NCBI RefSeq assembly: GCF_025950085.1
Contig: NZ_JAPDDS010000004.1
Location: 372,001-436,000 of the forward strand
Reading direction: 5' to 3'
DNA from: Luteolibacter flavescens
GTDB lineage: Bacteria; Verrucomicrobiota; Verrucomicrobiia; Verrucomicrobiales; Akkermansiaceae
DNA length: 64,000 nt
Position numbers and translations under genes: made by a program. Each line of letters opens with the position of its first letter. Within the stretch, counting starts at the first letter, position 1. Of this stretch, positions 35,628 through 48,634 are shown piece by piece. Below the pieces are notes generated by a model. The model did not search any database and had not been told where the DNA came from. It worked only from the letters and a program-made list of their open reading frames with translations.

Positions 35628-35966
35628 GTGGTCCGCATCGCTCCGCGTGCGGTGCCTGGGAGCGCCGGTCATTAGACCGGCCCGAGTGGTCCTTGGCTGC
35701 GCGCTTCATCGCGGAGGTCTGCATCGTGAAAGTAGTCCGCATCGCTACGCGTGCGGTGCGCTGGTAGGGGAGTTGTGGGCGAGGCCTCGCTGTCATCTTC
35801 ACTATGCAAGGAGTCTCCGTGCTGCCTCCCACCCCGAAGCCACAATAACAAAGCCCGCCGCCAGAACTGCTTCGCCGCACGCGGAGCGATGCGGACCACG
35901 ATGGCACAGGGTCTCCGTCGGCATCGAGAGCTGCTTCGGGCCGGTCTAATGACCGGCGCTCCCAGG
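35628..35966. repeat. Repeat cluster B-A-B and B-A
   Basis: Family B occupies 35628-35655, A 35657-35687 (GCCGGTC-atta-GACCGGC), a divergent B 35731-35760, B in reverse 35868-35904 and A in reverse 35935-35966. The stretch 35614-36279 has no gene. Confidence 0.88.
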
Positions 35967-36039
35967 AGCTGCCGCAGGCGGAGTGCTGGCTTTAGCCGGC
36001 AAGTCTCCTTCCCCAAAGCCTGCCACCACCCACAAAAGC

Positions 36040-36193
36040 CCTCCGTCCTCCGTCCTCCGTCCTCCGTCCTCCGTCCTCCGTCCTCCGTCCTCCGTCCTCC
36101 GTCCTCCGTCCTCCGTCCTCCATCCTCCATCCTCCATCCTCCATCCTCCATCCTCCATCTCCCATCTCCCATCTCCCATCTCCCATCTCCCAT
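36040..36193. repeat. Heptanucleotide tandem array in three blocks
   Basis: There are 11 copies of cctccgt (36040-36116), then 6 of cctccat (36117-36158), then 5 of ctcccat (36159-36193). All are 7-base units in register, differing by one base between blocks. The purine-free strand could form a triplex or G-rich structure on the opposite strand. The open frames across it are non-coding. Confidence 0.95.
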
Positions 36194-36279
36194 CTCCCCA
36201 AAACGATTCAAGGTTGCCGGGACCACCGCCTTCGGCTCCATTGGAGGCTGAATAAATTAAATCCGGAGGACCAACCATC

Positions 36280-37131
36280 ATGCGCTGGGAAGGACGACGT
36301 CAGAGTGAAAACGTGGAAGATCGCCGCGGCGGCAGGGGTGGGGGCGGCATCGCCATCGGCGGCGGGCTGGGGACGCTGGTCCTGCTGCTCATCGTGTGGC
36401 TGCTCGGCGGGGATCCCATGCAGTTCCTCCAGCAGACGCAGGGTGGCGGTGGCGGGCAGGGCATCGAGGCCCCGGCGTCACCGGAGGAAGAGCGTGCGGT
36501 GGCCTTCGTGAAGACCGTGCTCGCCGATACCGAGGAGATCTGGGGCGCGGAATTCCAGCGCATGGGAAAGACCTACGAGGAGCCGCGGCTGGTGCTCTTC
36601 CGCGGCACGGTGCAGAGCGGCTGCGGCGGCGCGAGCTCGCAGATGGGGCCCTTCTACTGCCCGGCGGACCGCACCGTTTACATCGATCTCTCGTTCTTCC
36701 GCGAGCTGGAGGACAGGTTCGGCGCGGCCGGGGACTTCGCGCAGGCCTACGTCATCGCCCACGAGGTGGGGCATCACGTGCAGAGCCTGCTGGGCATCTC
36801 CGGCCAGGTGCAGCAGGCACGGCAGCGCGTGAGCGAAAAGGAGGCGAACGAGCTCTCCGTGAGGCTGGAGCTCCAAGCGGACTTCCTTGCCGGCATGTGG
36901 GCGCGGAAGGGCCAGCAGAAGTACGACTTCCTGGAAGAAGGCGATCTCGAGGAAGCGCTGAATGCGGCGAACAAGATCGGCGACGATACCCTGCAGCGCC
37001 AGGCGCAGGGCCGCGTGGTGCCCGACTCCTTCACCCACGGCACCTCGGCGCAGCGCATGCGCTGGTTCAAGAAAGGCCTCCAGAGTGATCGATTCGACCC
37101 GAACAACACGTTTCAGACCGACGATCTCTAA
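36280..37131 (+). CDS. ypfJ: Neutral zinc metallopeptidase (YpfJ family)
   Basis: This is a 283-residue membrane-anchored protease. A Gly/Arg-rich N-terminus and one span (ALVLLLIVWLL-like segment, about 30-42) are followed by a periplasmic or cytoplasmic peptidase domain with the zinc motif HEVGHH (H161, E162, H165) and a later third-ligand region QADFLAGMWA. The GCGGASSQMGPFYCPAD block with two cysteines is typical of the family. A good ribosome site (ggagg) lies 12 bases before the ATG. Physiological targets are not established for this family. Confidence 0.93.
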   Translation: MRWEGRRQSENVEDRRGGRGGGGIAIGGGLGTLVLLLIVWLLGGDPMQFLQQTQGGGGGQGIEAPASPEEERAVAFVKTVLADTEEIWGAEFQRMGKTYEEPRLVLFRGTVQSGCGGASSQMGPFYCPADRTVYIDLSFFRELEDRFGAAGDFAQAYVIAHEVGHHVQSLLGISGQVQQARQRVSEKEANELSVRLELQADFLAGMWARKGQQKYDFLEEGDLEEALNAANKIGDDTLQRQAQGRVVPDSFTHGTSAQRMRWFKKGLQSDRFDPNNTFQTDDL

Positions 37132-40181: not shown

Positions 40182-40470
40182 CTGTCTTTGATCAGAAGCC
40201 CGGGAAGTGGCCCGGCGCGGCTATCGGCGATGTCTGTTGGGGAGGATACCGGCACGGGGGGAAATGCCGCGGAAAGGAAACCGTCATGTTCCTGCTATCC
40301 GATTTTCGCCCTGATAAGGAATTATACGCTACGCGATCGCGTGAAAAACCCCCGTGGAATCAACGAAATCGCGTAGGTTTGGGGGTATTTGGCCGGTTTT
40401 CCCTCTATTATACTTGCTTGGTATTTAAGGGGGGCTTACCGACGCCTTGTCAGTTCTCCCCTTACTCCCC

Positions 40471-41445
40471 ATGAAACTCCTTACATTCCTGTCCGCAGGC
40501 GTACTATGCCTGTGCGGAGCGAAAGCTAGCGCCGCCAACCTGGTGATGAGCCTGATGGAGCGCTTCAATGTCATCGCCGGTGATTACACTCCGGGCAATG
40601 AGACCGAGGGTTCCGCCCTTGTCTATGGCACCTACAAGCCGGGCAATTCCGCCCAGTTCGGCTTCAACAGCGGACAGGTGTCGAACGACGCCAAGTACAC
40701 GCTGTGGCTGAACAACGGCGTGGCCAATACCAACCGCACCACGCTGCTCAGCGGCAGCCTCGTGAGCCGCACCCCGGTGACGAGCAGCCAGTTCACGCTG
40801 AATGGCAATGCCCCCGGCACCCCGGTGATCTCCACCGGCGAGGGCGCATGGAATGACGCGCTCGCCAGCGTGGGCCTCTCCAGCGTGAATCACCTCACGA
40901 ACATCCTGACCCTCGCCTCGCAGCAGTGGTCGCAGATGACGCCGAACAGCACGGCCACCATCCCGGGCAACGGCTCCTTCACCTTCAATGCCACGCCGAC
41001 CCTGATCGACGGCACGCGGGTCGCCATCTTCAATGTCTCCGCTGCCACCCTCTTCGGCAACGGCGGCAACTTCGACCGCCTGGAGCTGAACATGAACGGC
41101 GCGGAGACCGTGCTGATCAACGTCTCGGGCACGAACATCGACATCAACAAGAACTTCACCAACGGCTTCACGAACAACGAATCGAAGGTCCTCTTCAACT
41201 TCTTCGAGGCGACCTCGATGACGGTGAACAGGAACTTCCGCGGCGCGATCTTCGCCCCGCTGGCAAACGTGCAGCAGAATGGCTCGAACTTCGACGGCTC
41301 CGTGGTGGCGGCCAAGCTGACCCAGACCGCCGAGATCCACAACGTGACCTTCAAGGGCAACCTGCCCGCCTCGTCCATACCGGAGCCTTCCGTGGCCATC
41401 CTCGCCCTCGCGGGTCTCGGCCTCGCCTTCCGCCGCAAGCGCTGA
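40471..41445 (+). CDS. Choice-of-anchor A family PEP-CTERM protein
   Basis: This is a 324-residue surface protein: signal peptide MKLLTFLSAGVLCLCGAKASA, a choice-of-anchor A domain (residues about 40-300; VSGTNIDINKNFTNGF, VLFNFFEATSMTVN, GAIFAPLANVQQNG) and the sorting signal IPEPSVAILALAGLGLAFRRKR. Known biology: this beta-helix-like domain is paired with different anchors (PEP-CTERM, LPXTG) in different phyla, so the anchor here is the exosortase type. It may help form the outer matrix. It has its own terminator. Confidence 0.92.
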   Translation: MKLLTFLSAGVLCLCGAKASAANLVMSLMERFNVIAGDYTPGNETEGSALVYGTYKPGNSAQFGFNSGQVSNDAKYTLWLNNGVANTNRTTLLSGSLVSRTPVTSSQFTLNGNAPGTPVISTGEGAWNDALASVGLSSVNHLTNILTLASQQWSQMTPNSTATIPGNGSFTFNATPTLIDGTRVAIFNVSAATLFGNGGNFDRLELNMNGAETVLINVSGTNIDINKNFTNGFTNNESKVLFNFFEATSMTVNRNFRGAIFAPLANVQQNGSNFDGSVVAAKLTQTAEIHNVTFKGNLPASSIPEPSVAILALAGLGLAFRRKR

Positions 41446-41577: not shown

Positions 41578-43155
41578 TCAGGGATTCAGCAGCGGCTCGA
41601 GCAGTCCGTTGAAGTAGTCCTTCTGTAGCTGTGAAAGTGGCAGGGTCTGCACGGCCTTCTGTGCGGTCAGCGGCTGGATGTCGGCCAGGCTCGGGAAGAC
41701 CTCTCCGAAGGCGGCGGCCTGCTTCTGCGGGTCCTTGATCTGCTGCACCTGCTGCAGCGCGACGACGGGATCGTCAAAGGCGACCGTGCTGGCGATGGCA
41801 CCGCGTGCGCGGTCCTGCTCCTGGCCGGCGGGCAGCGTACCGGCCCAGCGGACCAGGTCGTTCGTGGCACCGCCCGCCTCGGTCCATCCGGACACGGTTG
41901 CGGGGATGGCGGCTAGGCGCGAGGAGGTGCCGGAGAGCTCGGCCAGCGCACCGGCAGCACCGGCGGGATCCTTGGAAGCCCAGGACTCGAAGAAGTCTGC
42001 GACCACGCGGGTGGCGGGATTTGCCTCGGTGCGGAGCTGGCTCCAGGCGGCGGCAGGATCGATGCTGACCCAGGCACCATACACGCTGGCGAGCGCGGCT
42101 TCCCCGCCCTGGATGGCGGTCAGGCTGCGCGCCCAGGCGAGCGCGGCGGCGGGGTCGTTCCGCACGAGCGCATTGCCGATCTCCGTGGCGGCGCGCTCGA
42201 AGTACTGGAGATTCGGGTCCGGCAGCGAGCGCAGTGCCTGCTCGGCCTGGGCCGGGGTCATGTCTTCAAATTCGCCATCCATCGAGGGGCCCATCTGGCG
42301 GCGGTCCGCGAGCACCTTCTCGGTGAAGGCGGCCTGCATCTTCGCCACGGCGTCGCGGTAGATCTCGCCCGCACCGTGCGGGCTGGCCTCCGCCATGGCC
42401 GAGAGCACGGCGGCCAGCGCATAGGCGCGGTCGCCTTCGTGGGAAAGCGAGTTCGCCCAGGCGAGGGCGGCGGCGGAGTCATTCGCGCCGAGGTAGGTGC
42501 CGATCGCGAGCTGGGCGGCGAGGCGGTTCGGCGTGGACTGGATGCCCGCGGCGAGGCTCTTCGCGGACTCGATGTCCTTTGCCACGAGGTAGGGGATGAT
42601 GCCGGCGATGGCGCGGTCCTGCTCGATGCCTGCGAGGCGCTGCTGCGCCCAGTCGAGCGCCGTTTCGGGATCGATGCGTGCCACGTTGAGGATGGTGCGC
42701 TGGATGATGCTGGAGAGCGTGGGGGAAGTGATGGCCTGGTCGCCGAGACCGGGGATCACCTCCAGGAGGATGGGGCCGAGGATGGCCCAGCGGCGGCCGT
42801 TTTCATCGAGGACCTCGAGCTCATTGATGAAGGCGAGGAAGCCGCGCATGTCCGCCTGCATCCAGCTCCGGAGCAGGCCGGGCAGGATGTCGCGGATGAT
42901 TTCCTCGTTGCCCGAGTCGAGGGCTTCGCGGACGAGCTGTGCCCAGTCCGCCGGCGTCGCCGCGGCCACTGCCGCGGCGAACCGGGTGGCACCGTCATGA
43001 CCGTCCCACTTGCCCGCCACGGGGGCGGACACGGGTTCCTTCCTTTCGGAAATGGCTTCCGGCTTGGAAGGAAGGGCCAGCCACCAGGTGAGGGCCACGA
43101 GTCCTGCGAGGAGCAGGCCGAGGCGGACCCTGGTGGATTTCAGGAGAGCAGTCAT
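41578..43155 (-). CDS. Membrane-anchored alpha-repeat protein
   Basis: This is a 525-residue protein with an N-terminal anchor (VRLGLLLAGLVALTWWLAL, about 9-27) and a large helical periplasmic region. Repeats of 35-40 residues carry the pattern DP(A/E)xALxWA(R/Q/N)SL (for example DPAAALAWARSL, DPETALDWAQQRL, DSAAALAWANSL), like TPR-type scaffolds. It has no catalytic motif. It lies 56 bases after the amidase on the same strand and probably belongs to its operon. Two other proteins near 45.5-48.5 kb have the same kind of repeat. Confidence 0.8.
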   Translation of the reverse strand: MTALLKSTRVRLGLLLAGLVALTWWLALPSKPEAISERKEPVSAPVAGKWDGHDGATRFAAAVAAATPADWAQLVREALDSGNEEIIRDILPGLLRSWMQADMRGFLAFINELEVLDENGRRWAILGPILLEVIPGLGDQAITSPTLSSIIQRTILNVARIDPETALDWAQQRLAGIEQDRAIAGIIPYLVAKDIESAKSLAAGIQSTPNRLAAQLAIGTYLGANDSAAALAWANSLSHEGDRAYALAAVLSAMAEASPHGAGEIYRDAVAKMQAAFTEKVLADRRQMGPSMDGEFEDMTPAQAEQALRSLPDPNLQYFERAATEIGNALVRNDPAAALAWARSLTAIQGGEAALASVYGAWVSIDPAAAWSQLRTEANPATRVVADFFESWASKDPAGAAGALAELSGTSSRLAAIPATVSGWTEAGGATNDLVRWAGTLPAGQEQDRARGAIASTVAFDDPVVALQQVQQIKDPQKQAAAFGEVFPSLADIQPLTAQKAVQTLPLSQLQKDYFNGLLEPLLNP

Positions 43156-43211
43156 GACGGTGCTTGTGGGTTTGGATGGGTCGGGTTCGGGGCGGATCCG
43201 GGGTCAGCTCA

Positions 43212-45254
43212 TCAGAGCTTCTTCGGCACGCGGATTTCCAGCACCGTGGCGCTGGTGTTTCCTTCGCTGTCCTCGGCGAGGACGCTCAGCTCCGCGGTCT
43301 TCGATCCCGGGGTCAGGTAGGGGAGGATCTCCTCGACGGAGACCGAGCCCTTCCACTGGCGGCCCTTGATGGCGACTGGCACGGACTGGCCGTTCACCCA
43401 GGCGCGGATGGTGGCCACGTCGGCCTTCAGGCGGATGTTGCCGCCCACTTCCAGGCGCTTCACACCGGCGGTCTTCTTGGCCGTGGCGCGCTTCTTCACC
43501 ACCAGCAGCGGCGGGGAGTAGGGCGAGTTCGCGCGGACGTAGGAGTCCATGGTCAGCTCGAAGCTCTCGCCATCGAGCGGCGGCACCAGCGGGGAGACGA
43601 TGCGCTTCTGGCTGGCGCGCTCGTAGGCGGCGGCCAGGGCCAGCAGCTTGTCATCCTGCAGGAAGCGTCCGACGAACTGGATGGTGGTCGGCTCGACCGA
43701 TCCGGAGACCTCCACCGTGCCCATCGGGACGGTGACGGCCGGGAGGCTGAAGGAATTGATCAGCGCGCGGGTCAGGTTCGGCAGCGTGAGGCCCGATGCG
43801 GTCTTGTTCGAGACGGTCGGGAAGATCAGCGCGTCCACGCCGTTGTCGGCCAGGAAGAGCTCGTAGTCATGGATCATGTACTTCACCGCCTGGAAGTGCT
43901 CCACGGTATCCGGGTGGCCCGGGCCGAAGGTGGTCTTCTCCGCGATGGAGGTGCGGTACTGCTGCGGGAGCTGGGTGACGGGGCTGATGCGTGCCACCAC
44001 CTTGTCGTGGATCTGCTCCGGCGTGTCGCCCGGCAGCGTGACCATGCTGTCGAGGAAGGTCTTGAAGGCATAGGCGCGCGAGCCGGCCACCATGTTGCCG
44101 GTGAGGTCCGTGGTGACGGGCGAGTAGAGCTTGCGTGTCGGCGGGGTGAGCACGGTATCCGGCAGCGAGCGGCGGCGGCCGGTGAAGGTGATGTCCAGCT
44201 CCGGCGGGGCGGTCACTTCCACCACGGTGGCACCGGCGGCCTCGAGCGTCGCCTTCGCCTCGGCGAAGACCTGCTTGATCGCGCCGGCCACGCCGGTGTC
44301 GGAGGTGCCCACGGAATTCGTCAGGATGCCGAATTTCTTGCCCGCGAGCGAGGAAGTGGTGGCCTGGCTGGCGAAGTTCACCGGGCGTGGACGGCCTTCA
44401 TCGACCGTCACGCTGGACCAGACGTTCGCCGGGTCTTCCTTCGAGGCGGCTTCCATCACGTGGGCATTGTCCACGGCGTAGCGGGTCATGGGGCCGACCA
44501 CGTCGCGATCCCATGCGAGCGGTGCGAGGCCGCGCACGGAGATGAGGGACTGGCTGGTCTTGTAGCCCACGATGCCCGCGCGCTCGGAGGGGCTGCGGAC
44601 GGAGCCGCCGGTCTCGCCGCCGAGGGCGAAGAAGGTGAGATTCGCGCCCACGGAGGAGCCGGAGCCGCCGCTCGATCCGCCGGTGGCGAACTCGCGGTTG
44701 TAGGCATTCCGCGCCAGGCCGAAGGTCTGGGAATTCGTCGAGCCGGTCGAGGACTGGAAGGTGTCCAGGTTGTTGTGGCCGAGGAAGACAGCACCCTTTT
44801 CCTGCAGCGCCTCGATGACGTGGCTGGTGTAGGGAGCGGTGAAGTCCGCCCAGACGGAGATGCCGTCCGTGGTGGCCATGCCCTTGAAGTTGTAGTTGCC
44901 CTTCGCGGTGAATGGCACGCCGTGGAGGGGACCGAGATCCACACCCTGGCGGCGCAGCTTGTCCGCGCGTGCCGCCTCGGCGATCACGTCCGGATTCAGC
45001 GCGGGCACGGTATTCAGGCCGATGGGGCCGGTCGTCTTGTCGTAGGCCGCGATGCGGTTCAGGTAGAGCAGGGTGAGCTCCACGCTGGAGAGTTCACCGA
45101 GGCGCATGGCCTCCTGGACGTCGTCGAGCGTGGCGGTCTCCAGGTCGAAGGTCTTGATGACCGGCACGGTGGACTCCGCCGCTCCGGCGATCCCGTAGGT
45201 GATGCCGGCGAAGCAGATGGACAGTATGAGCGAGGTGGTAGGTCGGGTCTTCAT
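43212..45254 (-). CDS. Exported amidase-signature family enzyme
   Basis: This is a 680-residue hydrolase with a signal peptide (MKTRPTTSLILSICFAGITYGIAGA). Residues 35-530 hold the amidase-signature fold with the Ser-cisSer-Lys triad K118 (GVPFTAKGN), S184 (GGSSGGS) and S208 (GETGGSVRSP). A C-terminal beta-sandwich-like extension (about 560-680) is added. Family members hydrolyse amides or ureas. Export and the extra domain suggest an extracytoplasmic substrate, such as a peptide or peptidoglycan fragment. It is divergent from the sigma factor gene, with a perfect palindrome between. Confidence 0.9.
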   Translation of the reverse strand: MKTRPTTSLILSICFAGITYGIAGAAESTVPVIKTFDLETATLDDVQEAMRLGELSSVELTLLYLNRIAAYDKTTGPIGLNTVPALNPDVIAEAARADKLRRQGVDLGPLHGVPFTAKGNYNFKGMATTDGISVWADFTAPYTSHVIEALQEKGAVFLGHNNLDTFQSSTGSTNSQTFGLARNAYNREFATGGSSGGSGSSVGANLTFFALGGETGGSVRSPSERAGIVGYKTSQSLISVRGLAPLAWDRDVVGPMTRYAVDNAHVMEAASKEDPANVWSSVTVDEGRPRPVNFASQATTSSLAGKKFGILTNSVGTSDTGVAGAIKQVFAEAKATLEAAGATVVEVTAPPELDITFTGRRRSLPDTVLTPPTRKLYSPVTTDLTGNMVAGSRAYAFKTFLDSMVTLPGDTPEQIHDKVVARISPVTQLPQQYRTSIAEKTTFGPGHPDTVEHFQAVKYMIHDYELFLADNGVDALIFPTVSNKTASGLTLPNLTRALINSFSLPAVTVPMGTVEVSGSVEPTTIQFVGRFLQDDKLLALAAAYERASQKRIVSPLVPPLDGESFELTMDSYVRANSPYSPPLLVVKKRATAKKTAGVKRLEVGGNIRLKADVATIRAWVNGQSVPVAIKGRQWKGSVSVEEILPYLTPGSKTAELSVLAEDSEGNTSATVLEIRVPKKL

Positions 45255-45438
45255 GTACATGGTTGAGGAGCATTCCGTGAATGCATGCGGACCCACCGGT
45301 CGAAACCGCAAATGGCTCGGGGGGAAGCCGGGGAGTCAGCGCCCCGATAGCACCCGACATGCCAGCGGGACGGCTGTCCTATGATTTTCGTTAGGATGGG
45401 GGAGGACACGTAATGAAATAAATTCAGGACCGCCGATC

Positions 45439-45456
45439 TGACGACAGATGTCGTCA
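45439..45456. promoter_or_regulatory. Perfect 18-bp palindrome, operator candidate
   Basis: TGACGAC-AGAT-GTCGTCA has 7-base perfect arms. It lies 49 bases before the sigma factor start and 185 before the amidase start, inside the only divergent intergenic region of the cluster. It probably controls one or both genes. Confidence 0.65.
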
Positions 45457-45504
45457 CTTCAAACGCGCGCGATTTTCCTGTCACACTTCCGCCGCGTGCG
45501 GGGG

Positions 45505-47475
45505 ATGATGGATGACATGAGCGACCGCAATGATGCAGCCCTGCTGGAGGCGTGGTGTGCCGGAGCCTCCGAGGAGGCCTTCGCGGCGCTCGCACGTCGC
45601 TACGGCGGACTGCTGTATCATGCGGCGCTGCGGCGGACCGGACGCGATGACCTCGCGGGCGAGGCGGCCCAGAATGCGCTGCTCATCCTCGCGCGGAAGG
45701 CCCCGCGGCTGACGCACCTGCCCAGTCTCTCCGGATGGCTCCACCGCACCGCCTGCTATGAGGCGTCGAAGATCCTGCGCCGCGAGCAGCGGCACCATGC
45801 GCGTATGAAACACCTGATGCCGCCGGACGAGGAAGGCGAGTCCACGTGGAAGGAGATCGCCCCGCTGCTGGATGAAGCACTGGACGCGATGGGCGAGAAG
45901 GATCGCGAGGTGATATTCCTGAAATTTTTCGACGGCCTGAGCTTCGAGCAGATGGCGCGTCGCTTCGGCGGCGAGCCCGCGGCGTGGCGCCAGCGTGGAT
46001 CGCGCGCCATCGAGCGGCTGCGGACTTATCTGACAAGGCGCGGCGTGGCGGTGAGTGCCACCGTGCTGACCACCGGGCTGGGCACCTCGTTCACGCAGGC
46101 CGCCCCTGCGGCTTTCCTCGCATCGCTGCCATCATCCGCATCCGCAGCATCCGCCGCGCTCTCGTGGCAGACGCTCACCTTCCACTCCATCCATCTCATG
46201 AAAGTGAAACCTGCCGCGGCGCTCGCGGCCGTCCTGCTTCTCTCGCTGGTGCCGCTGGGCATGCAGGCGATGGCCATCTCCGAGGCACGCGACCGCATCG
46301 GATTGTTAGAGAGCGCGCATGCCACGTCACCCGTGGCACCGTCGCGGCAGATGGCGTCATCGTCATCACGCGCGGGCAGCGCGATGAATCTCGTCGCGCT
46401 CGCGGATGCACTGCTCGCCGCGGAGCAGGGGGACCTGGTGAAGCGCTTCACCACGGAGAGGAAGATCGAAGCGATGGGCGCGGATGAGCTTGAAGCGTTG
46501 CTGAGGGAGTCGGCGGGGCTCGAGCTGGGAGCGGACCAGCGGGTCGCGCTGGTGAAGGCATTGTTCCGCCAGTACTGCCGCGTCGCGGAGAAGTCGGGCC
46601 TGCCCGGTGAGCGGGTGATGGAGCTGGTGGTGCTGCTCGCGCCTGCCATGACCTCCGGCCAGGGAACGCTGTGGGATCTCGCGGGAGGAAACCTGGACCG
46701 CTGGGTGGAGGCGGATCCGGATGCGGCGGTGGCGTGGTATCGCCAGATGGCCAGGCCCGGCTCCTCGAATGACACCGGCGTGCTGGTCGCGCGGGCATTC
46801 GATGCGCTGGAGCGGCGCGATTCGGCGGAGGCGCTGGCCTTCTATCGCTCGCTGCCGGATGCGGAGAAGTTCTCGCTGATCGGCGGCGGTGGTGGCGCGG
46901 ACCGGCCGCAGGAGATGCTCGGCCTCGCCTCGGAGATCGCGGATGAGCGGCTGCGGTTGCTTTCCATGAATGCGATCTTCCACCGTGCCGACGGCCGCTC
47001 CCCGCAGGAGGTGCGCGGATGGCTGGCGGGGCTGGATCTGGACGGGAGCCGGGCGGAGGAGCTGCTGGCCATCGCTGCCTCCGGTCCGCGCGGCGAGGTG
47101 ACTGCGGAGGACGCCGCGCGACGGATCGAGTGGCTGCGCGAGTCCGCGGACGGACTGGATGTCCCGCACGCCACCGGCATGCTGCTCACGGGCCTGGCGA
47201 CCTCCCGTCCGGATGCCGCGGCGGCGATCCTGGATGCCGAGTGGGCGCGCCGGCCGGACGAGCGGATGCTGGCCACCTACATGACCCATGGAGTGAAGAG
47301 CGAGCTGCTGGTGCTGGATGCGATCCCGCGTGCCGCCCTCATCTCCGACCCAGAGCTGCGCGACTCGGCGCTGCGCACCATGCTGCTGACCTCGCGCAAG
47401 GAGGAGGATGCCCGTGAACTCGCACGCAGGGGCGGGCTGCCAGCAGAGGAGATCGACCGGCTTTTTTCACGCTGA
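45505..47475 (+). CDS. ECF sigma factor fused to a membrane-anchored repeat domain
   Basis: This is a 656-residue fusion. Residues 8-92 are sigma region 2 (LLEAWCAGASEEAFAALARR, LAGEAAQNALLILARKA) and about 114-175 region 4 (MGEKDREVIFLKFFDGLSF), so the N-terminus is a sigma factor of the ECF type. A span near 244-266 (VKPAAALAAVLLLSLVPLG) is followed by about 390 helical residues with repeat-like segments. The sigma part would stay at the membrane unless released or the protein acts as a sensor. Such C-terminal extensions are known in this phylum. An alternative start is 45517. Confidence 0.88.
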   Translation: MMDDMSDRNDAALLEAWCAGASEEAFAALARRYGGLLYHAALRRTGRDDLAGEAAQNALLILARKAPRLTHLPSLSGWLHRTACYEASKILRREQRHHARMKHLMPPDEEGESTWKEIAPLLDEALDAMGEKDREVIFLKFFDGLSFEQMARRFGGEPAAWRQRGSRAIERLRTYLTRRGVAVSATVLTTGLGTSFTQAAPAAFLASLPSSASAASAALSWQTLTFHSIHLMKVKPAAALAAVLLLSLVPLGMQAMAISEARDRIGLLESAHATSPVAPSRQMASSSSRAGSAMNLVALADALLAAEQGDLVKRFTTERKIEAMGADELEALLRESAGLELGADQRVALVKALFRQYCRVAEKSGLPGERVMELVVLLAPAMTSGQGTLWDLAGGNLDRWVEADPDAAVAWYRQMARPGSSNDTGVLVARAFDALERRDSAEALAFYRSLPDAEKFSLIGGGGGADRPQEMLGLASEIADERLRLLSMNAIFHRADGRSPQEVRGWLAGLDLDGSRAEELLAIAASGPRGEVTAEDAARRIEWLRESADGLDVPHATGMLLTGLATSRPDAAAAILDAEWARRPDERMLATYMTHGVKSELLVLDAIPRAALISDPELRDSALRTMLLTSRKEEDARELARRGGLPAEEIDRLFSR

Positions 47476-47487
47476 CTCCCACAGACT

Positions 47488-48456
47488 ATGAAAGCCACCT
47501 TGCCCCTCATCGGCATCATCATCGCCACGGCCCTCGTCACCGGCTGGTGGCAGCGGCGCGAGCTCGCGCGGCTGGAGAGCCGCGAGGCGGAACTGGCCGC
47601 GAAGTACGGCGTGCATCGTAGTTCAGGGGAAGCCTCCGCGTCCGGGGCCGCGCGTCGCGATGCACGGCCATCGCTGGATGCCGCCGGCTTCGTCGGGCTG
47701 ATCGCGCGGTCCGCTCGCGATGGCAGCCGCCCGGGCGCGCGGGACCGGGCCTCGCTGCGGGATCACATTTCCACGGCCTCCGGGCGCGAGCTCAGGGAGT
47801 GGGCGGTGGCGCTGCGCGACAGCGACGTGCCGGAGGATCTGAAGAAGGACGTGCTGGCCTCTCTCGCGCCTCGCCTCGCGGAGAGCGACCCGCGGCTGGC
47901 GGCGGAGCTAGTGCTGGCCGGGGACGATGGCCTGGCCTTCCGCTCCGTGATGCGGACGTGGCTGGCGGCGGATGCCCCGGCGGCGGCGGCGTGGCTGGCG
48001 GGGATCAAGGCCCCGGAATTCGCGCAACCCGGCGGCTTCGATTTCCCCGTACTGGCACTGGCGGCACAGGTGGCGGCGGACCCGGGGAATCCCGCGGTGC
48101 TGCTGGAGGCGGATGGCGCGATGTCCCGCTCCTCGCTGGAGGAGCTGTCATCGATCCTCGCGCCACCGGATTTCTCGGCCACGCTGCACCGCTTCTCCAC
48201 CGCCTCGGACCTGCCGGAAAATGTGCGTATGCACGTGATGGGCATCGCGCTCGCGAATCACCGCGACCCCGCCGAAGCGCGCCAGATGCTGCTGGATGCC
48301 ACGCTGGATCCGAATCACCTGGCGAGGGTGACGGCGGCGATGATGCGCGAGCAGGACCCGGCCTCGCGGGCGGCCACCATCGAGTGGGTGCGCGGCCTTC
48401 CGGAGTTTCCGTTGAAGGTGGACCTTCTGACCCTGGGCTCCTCATTGCAGGAATGA
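47488..48456 (+). CDS. Membrane-anchored helical protein
   Basis: This is a 322-residue protein with an N-terminal anchor (MKATLPLIGIIIATALVTGWW), a coiled, charged linker and a helical domain of repeats like the periplasmic part of the sigma fusion and of the protein at 41578 (for example DPRLAAELVLAGDDG, DPGNPAVLLEADG). It starts 12 bases after the sigma gene stop, so the two are probably co-transcribed, and it may interact with the sigma protein's periplasmic half. No enzyme motif is seen. Confidence 0.8.
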   Translation: MKATLPLIGIIIATALVTGWWQRRELARLESREAELAAKYGVHRSSGEASASGAARRDARPSLDAAGFVGLIARSARDGSRPGARDRASLRDHISTASGRELREWAVALRDSDVPEDLKKDVLASLAPRLAESDPRLAAELVLAGDDGLAFRSVMRTWLAADAPAAAAWLAGIKAPEFAQPGGFDFPVLALAAQVAADPGNPAVLLEADGAMSRSSLEELSSILAPPDFSATLHRFSTASDLPENVRMHVMGIALANHRDPAEARQMLLDATLDPNHLARVTAAMMREQDPASRAATIEWVRGLPEFPLKVDLLTLGSSLQE

Positions 48457-48634
48457 TGGCCACCCCGCAGGCATCGTCTTGTGCGTATGTCCGGAGATGT
48501 GGCTGCCGCGTGCGCGTGCGGCACGTAGTTGAGTGTGATGGCTTGCCCTGACGAGTGTGTAGGGCTTTTTGCATGGGATCGATGGGGGGCGAAGACGTTT
48601 GACCCCCGGGGGCCGGTCCTTCATACCCCCTGCC

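Follow-up and report, generated by a model that had tools for sequence, protein, structure and literature searches.

The question raised by this locus, which lies in the 5.9-Mb draft genome of Luteolibacter flavescens, is what controls an ECF sigma factor that carries its own membrane anchor, and which of the surrounding genes belong with it. The original prediction, drawn from the 64,000-nucleotide stretch of DNA analysed here (the window), described a four-gene system in which the sigma factor, two repeat proteins and an exported amidase would act together. Comparison of gene order across related genomes indicates that the core unit is a two-gene operon rather than four genes, formed from a tethered ECF sigma factor and a membrane-anchored partner (Table 1). 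Both the tethering of the sigma protein and its pairing with the partner are well supported by sequence comparison.

Table 1. Coordinates within the window of the sigma/partner operon, its elements and the neighbouring amidase module.
Feature	Position	Strand	Description and basis
Tethered ECF sigma factor	45448..47475	+	Regions 2 and 4, Ala-rich linker, TM helix, helical ectodomain
Promoter-like element TTTTCCTGTCAC	45473..45484	+	Kept in 6/6 orthologues
Met-Lys (residue 251) and TM helix with Pro269 and Gln273	46198..46278	+	Homologue alignment
Sigma ectodomain	46279..47472	+	Juxtamembrane coil, then alpha-solenoid; AlphaFold model
Sigma-free twin (partner)	47488..48456	+	N-terminal TM, coil, solenoid; profile comparison, model
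Exported amidase-signature enzyme	43212..45311	-	Pfam Amidase; neighbour, outside core unit
Third membrane-anchored helical-repeat protein	41578..43155	-	Pair-mate of the amidase; outside core unit

Within the sigma ORF, Sigma70_r2 (PF04542, 26.6 bits) and Sigma70_r4 (PF08281, 31.1 bits) both score above their Pfam gathering thresholds, and TIGR02937 is matched at 57.6 bits (cut-off 42.9). Having regions 2 and 4 only, the protein belongs to the ECF class (group 4); it falls outside the Rhodopirellula/Verrucomicrobium sigma family TIGR02989, for which it scores 42.5 bits against a curated cut-off of 124.55. The sigma domains are the only ones above cut-off in Pfam and NCBIfam, with no CSS anti-sigma (FecR-like) domain among them, and no zinc-finger or anti-sigma family appears in the Pfam scan at E values up to 0.1. 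Nor does any anti-sigma family in Pfam or NCBIfam match the partner or the neighbours scanned (the amidase, the repeat proteins, an unmatched protein, an MBOAT protein and a choice-of-anchor protein), so the expectation that no classic anti-sigma gene is nearby holds for the four genes and the immediate flanks. The anticipated fusion of a sigma factor to a transmembrane segment and some 390 helical residues is borne out as well: a single strong hydrophobic segment (residues 259–277) is followed by about 398 residues, mostly helical. The true start codon is probably the ATG at 45517 and not that at 45448, since the conserved element upstream of the former, described below, is non-coding in relatives.

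An AlphaFold model of the sigma protein (mean pLDDT 84, pTM 0.54) is good within domains, the pTM meaning that the arrangement between domains is not given by it. A linker between region 4 and the TM (residues 226–254) is of low confidence, and is followed by a helix (255–292) and an unbroken helical repeat with pLDDT mostly above 90. This solenoid matches no named repeat family (HEAT, TPR or Sel1) over the Pfam cut-off, and a fold search against the PDB returned no relative at E ≤ 0.001; an anti-sigma match, to DdvA (E 0.2 and 0.07), was dropped as not significant. In the TM helix itself, Pro269 is nearly invariant and Gln273 invariant among 14 aligned homologues.

As with membrane-bound one-component regulators, such a protein might be active while tethered, with no cleavage needed if a change in the ectodomain freed the sigma surface. 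The low-confidence linker could give the sigma part access to RNA polymerase, and the operon has no protease gene of its own; however, a sigma factor has to associate with RNA polymerase at promoters all round the chromosome, the TM proline is near-invariant, and IutY, the closest studied analogue, undergoes cleavage. Activity of the tethered form is accordingly judged unlikely, and an envelope-side sensor with proteolytic release of the sigma part, as first proposed, is a plausible arrangement.

The most distinctive feature of the operon is the partner. It had been expected to be an anchored protein with helical repeats similar to those of the sigma protein, and while anchor and repeats are both present, "similar" proved too weak a word, as homology to the sigma ectodomain spans the whole length. 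When the profiles of 28 sigma ectodomains and 28 partners were compared, the probability was 99.7% over 384 columns, against 0.1% for a reversed-partner control; with the TM included, the alignment is collinear over 404 columns (99.8% probability, E 7e-30) and begins at Met1 of the partner, opposite a conserved internal Met ahead of the sigma TM. Despite divergence to about 11% identity, the partner is on this evidence a sigma-free paralogue, or twin, of the anchor and ectodomain that the sigma protein itself carries. Its model (pLDDT 90.6) has an N-terminal TM helix running on as a coil into a solenoid, with TM and coil forming one continuous helix in both the sigma and the twin models. Two further sigma/twin pairs with different ectodomains are present in the same genome, in which the relationship is detectable by blastp (35% identity, E 1.4e-30; 25% identity, E 3.6e-13).

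The Met, in a Met..Lys motif before the TM, is found in 56 of 66 tethered sigma homologues, and it is at this pre-TM Met that naturally sigma-less homologues start, both in the window's own genome (G000, contig C5) and in G127. One of these, at G000:C5:210234-212995 (L127:5235-7995), pairs an anchor-solenoid gene that lacks sigma with an anchored partner of its own downstream; a second sigma-less pair, L107:5121-6170 and the next gene, occurs in G127. The simplest history would start from a tandem anchor-solenoid pair, one copy of which acquired an in-frame fusion to a sigma gene. An internal start at the conserved Met might also yield a sigma-less isoform, although the Shine-Dalgarno signal before it is no stronger than at other in-frame ATGs, in a test of low power given that real partner starts likewise lack such a signal.

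Sigma ectodomain and twin co-vary in evolutionary distance (r = 0.88, a value reached by 0 of 2000 permutations), more closely than do the sigma part and the twin (r = 0.74), with shared ancestry feeding both figures. The co-variation bears on a second account, in which the twin is not a co-receptor but a competitor that sets a threshold for release by sequestering the signal or the site-1 protease. Such a role would suit a protein with the same anchor and ectodomain and no output domain, encoded in a gene arrangement that implies co-transcription with sigma, and sigma-less anchor-solenoid pairs exist too (L127, L107). Physical partnership fits the co-variation at least as well, however, and about 11% identity is a large divergence for a decoy of the same ligand, so that the competitor role appears rather improbable. 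On sequence, the twin could serve as co-receptor, guard or decoy; co-receptor or guard is the reading preferred here.

The pairing is conserved. Orthologues of the sigma gene in five same-genus genomes (44–69% identical) all have the partner gene directly downstream, the two ORFs in the window being separated by 12 bp. A scan of named genomes with the six orthologues returned one close match, in Haloferula sp. BvORR071, which bears an orthologous sigma/partner pair, together with four more distant loci. Across about 38 repeat-type loci examined, the next same-strand gene encodes a single-TM protein in nearly all that were readable, and the sigma stop and partner start overlap by 4 bp at 15 of 33. 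Immediately beyond the partner (48456-48569), the window lacks two genes that in the relatives L039 and L040 lie between the partner and the gene at 48569, one for a two-TM protein and the other DeoB-like as judged from its N-terminal sequence.

Tethered sigma factors of this kind are more widely distributed than the operon itself. The genome of the window encodes at least nine further tethered ECF sigma paralogues with several ectodomain types, on contigs C1, C2, C8, C9, C16, C17 and C23. Some, including C8a, C8b and C17, which are related and have repeat-type ectodomains, have no adjacent twin, and a twin is therefore not needed for every tethered sigma factor. Among 141 genomes sampled from the class, 27 contain matches to the sigma-linker-TM half, joined to other C-terminal parts, with at least several copies in many of the matching genomes; these copy counts are lower bounds, as the best 8–10 candidates per genome were scored. 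The two-part receptor layout is apparently widespread in Verrucomicrobiota, and apparently unstudied there. Possible local targets are the large proteins, bearing TSP3 or passenger-associated (PATR) repeats, that are encoded beside tethered sigma genes at L011:5770-15379 (G000:C16), L009 and L045.

Upstream of the operon, TTTTCCTGTCAC precedes the probable initiating ATG (45517) by about 33 bp. It occurs once per genome, always at the sigma operon, in all six genomes (5.9–7.8 Mb), apart from one extra match in G079, sited at an unrelated gene's 3' end and rejected as probably due to chance; a control pattern gave two matches in one genome. An element of looser form, TTT..TGTC, is present ahead of 22 of the 38 repeat-type sigma genes, compared with 10 of 183 other genes, related genes being non-independent in this count. 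Since the TGTCACA core equals the -35 box of ECF41 (PMC3426412) but the -10 partner was judged by eye only, with no clear -10 CGTC element seen, we infer autoregulation of the sigma operon as something that the element suggests, and it could also be bound by another regulator. The same element argues against the idea of a vestigial sigma part joined to a solenoid pair whose role in the envelope is structural, as does the conservation of regions 2 and 4, which score over profile cut-offs. Although sigma-less versions of the pair in G000:C5 and G127 could be taken in its favour, this explanation is very improbable.

The genes on the other side of the operon can be set apart from it. The amidase (Pfam Amidase, E 8.5e-66) has an N-terminus that on inspection resembles a signal peptide if translation starts at M18 or M20, near 45254-45260, and the third protein is anchored and of the helical-repeat type, with a weak local similarity to the twin. 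Both genes are thus present as first described, an exported amidase followed by a repeat protein, yet their membership in the sigma unit did not survive comparison. Only three of the six operon-bearing genomes (the window, G039 and G064) have the amidase beside the sigma gene in divergent orientation, and in the other three (G019, G006 and G079) the divergent position is held by ClpB, called by Pfam in L041 and L042 and by matching N-terminal sequence in L043. The third repeat protein stands next to the amidase in G039, G064, G124 and, as distant copies, G019; in G124 the two occur together with no sigma operon on the stretch analysed, and in G019 about 2 Mb separate them from it. On gene order, the amidase and its repeat-protein neighbour form a two-gene module of their own, and a four-gene unit including the amidase is rejected. 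The proposal that the sigma ectodomain senses a product of the exported amidase could still draw on the divergent adjacency in the three close genomes, but with three operon-bearing genomes having no amidase beside the operon, and the amidase pair on its own in G124 and sited elsewhere in G019, it can be given hardly any credence. Elsewhere in the window, a choice-of-anchor A protein with a PEP-CTERM sorting signal is encoded at 40447-41445, and a short tandem DNA repeat (35950-36260), giving EDGGRRT-type repeats in mechanical ORFs, lies just ahead of the gene at 36280.

Together, these observations can be accommodated in a two-gene envelope-signalling operon, for which, as a whole model, a probability of about 0.5 seems reasonable. 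The first gene product would be an ECF sigma factor that a single TM helix keeps at the inner membrane and that bears an alpha-solenoid on the outer side, and the second would share this anchor and solenoid but lack the sigma part. Assembly of the two would most likely involve the TM/juxtamembrane coils and the solenoids, which match between them, with the twin as co-receptor or guard of the sigma-bearing subunit. A cue in the envelope, acting on the solenoids, may alter the complex in such a way that a site-1 protease gains access to the sigma subunit, after which a site-2 protease of the genome would cut the Pro-containing TM and free the sigma part to bind RNA polymerase and first turn on its own operon. 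The genome does encode M50 site-2 proteases, although their presence lends weak support because site-2 proteases are near universal (M50 genes occur in 14 of 14 control genomes). One M50 gene lies two genes from the tethered sigma/twin pair on C2 (L010:1057-6593, G000:C2), the ectodomains of which carry LTPEQ-like motifs; no close full-length orthologue of this pair's sigma protein was found among 97 family genomes. A broader reading, held tentatively and at somewhat less than even odds, is that a sigma factor fused to one subunit of a paired receptor, with the other subunit sigma-free, replaces the sigma/anti-sigma couple, and that this design has been elaborated repeatedly with different ectodomains across Verrucomicrobiota.

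Several known systems share parts of this layout. IutY of Pseudomonas putida (ECF243) is a sigma/anti-sigma fusion activated by Prc and RseP (PMC5411451). As in IutY, a single polypeptide here combines a cytosolic ECF sigma factor, one TM and a periplasmic domain; IutY, however, has a CSS anti-sigma periplasmic domain and a TonB-dependent receptor as partner, in place of which there are an alpha-solenoid and a sigma-free twin, with no TonB-dependent receptor gene among the neighbours scanned. In Actinobacteria, ECF52, ECF53 and ECF48 (e.g. SCO4117) are described, in the relevant passages of two papers, as ECF sigma factors joined via a TM region to an extracytoplasmic domain, as here, and proteolytic release has been proposed (PMC8999054, PMC5826349). 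According to those passages, these groups bear a zinc-finger anti-sigma domain, and ECF52 also a carbohydrate-binding domain, neither of which is found here, and the passages make no mention of a twin gene.

Long C-terminal extensions of ECF sigma factors are also known elsewhere in the PVC group, the planctomycete proteins having WD40 propellers where those described here have solenoids. The WD40-extended planctomycete group is named ECF01-Gob. Besides the C-terminal WD40 domains, several planctomycete ECF sigma factors have been found in Triton- and SDS-soluble fractions (PMC8567305). ECF41 is comparable in having a C-terminal regulator fused to the sigma factor and in the TGTCACA -35-like element. 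ECF41 proteins are soluble and their fused domain is SnoaL-like, whereas the Pfam scan detected no SnoaL-like domain here. The arrangement also differs from the classic couple of an ECF sigma factor and a separate anti-sigma factor, in that the partner is a paralogue of the sigma ectodomain with no anti-sigma match.

Tethered ECF sigma factors, their proteolytic activation (in IutY, and as proposed for ECF52) and planctomycete ECFs with long extensions were thus already known. The new feature is the sigma-free twin, of which no description was found in the open-licence papers searched. With its tether, matched sigma-free twin and self-specific promoter-like element, the operon provides a concrete, testable layout for one large group, and if the twin controls release, it would represent an alternative to sigma/anti-sigma pairs and a compact, engineerable sensor design.
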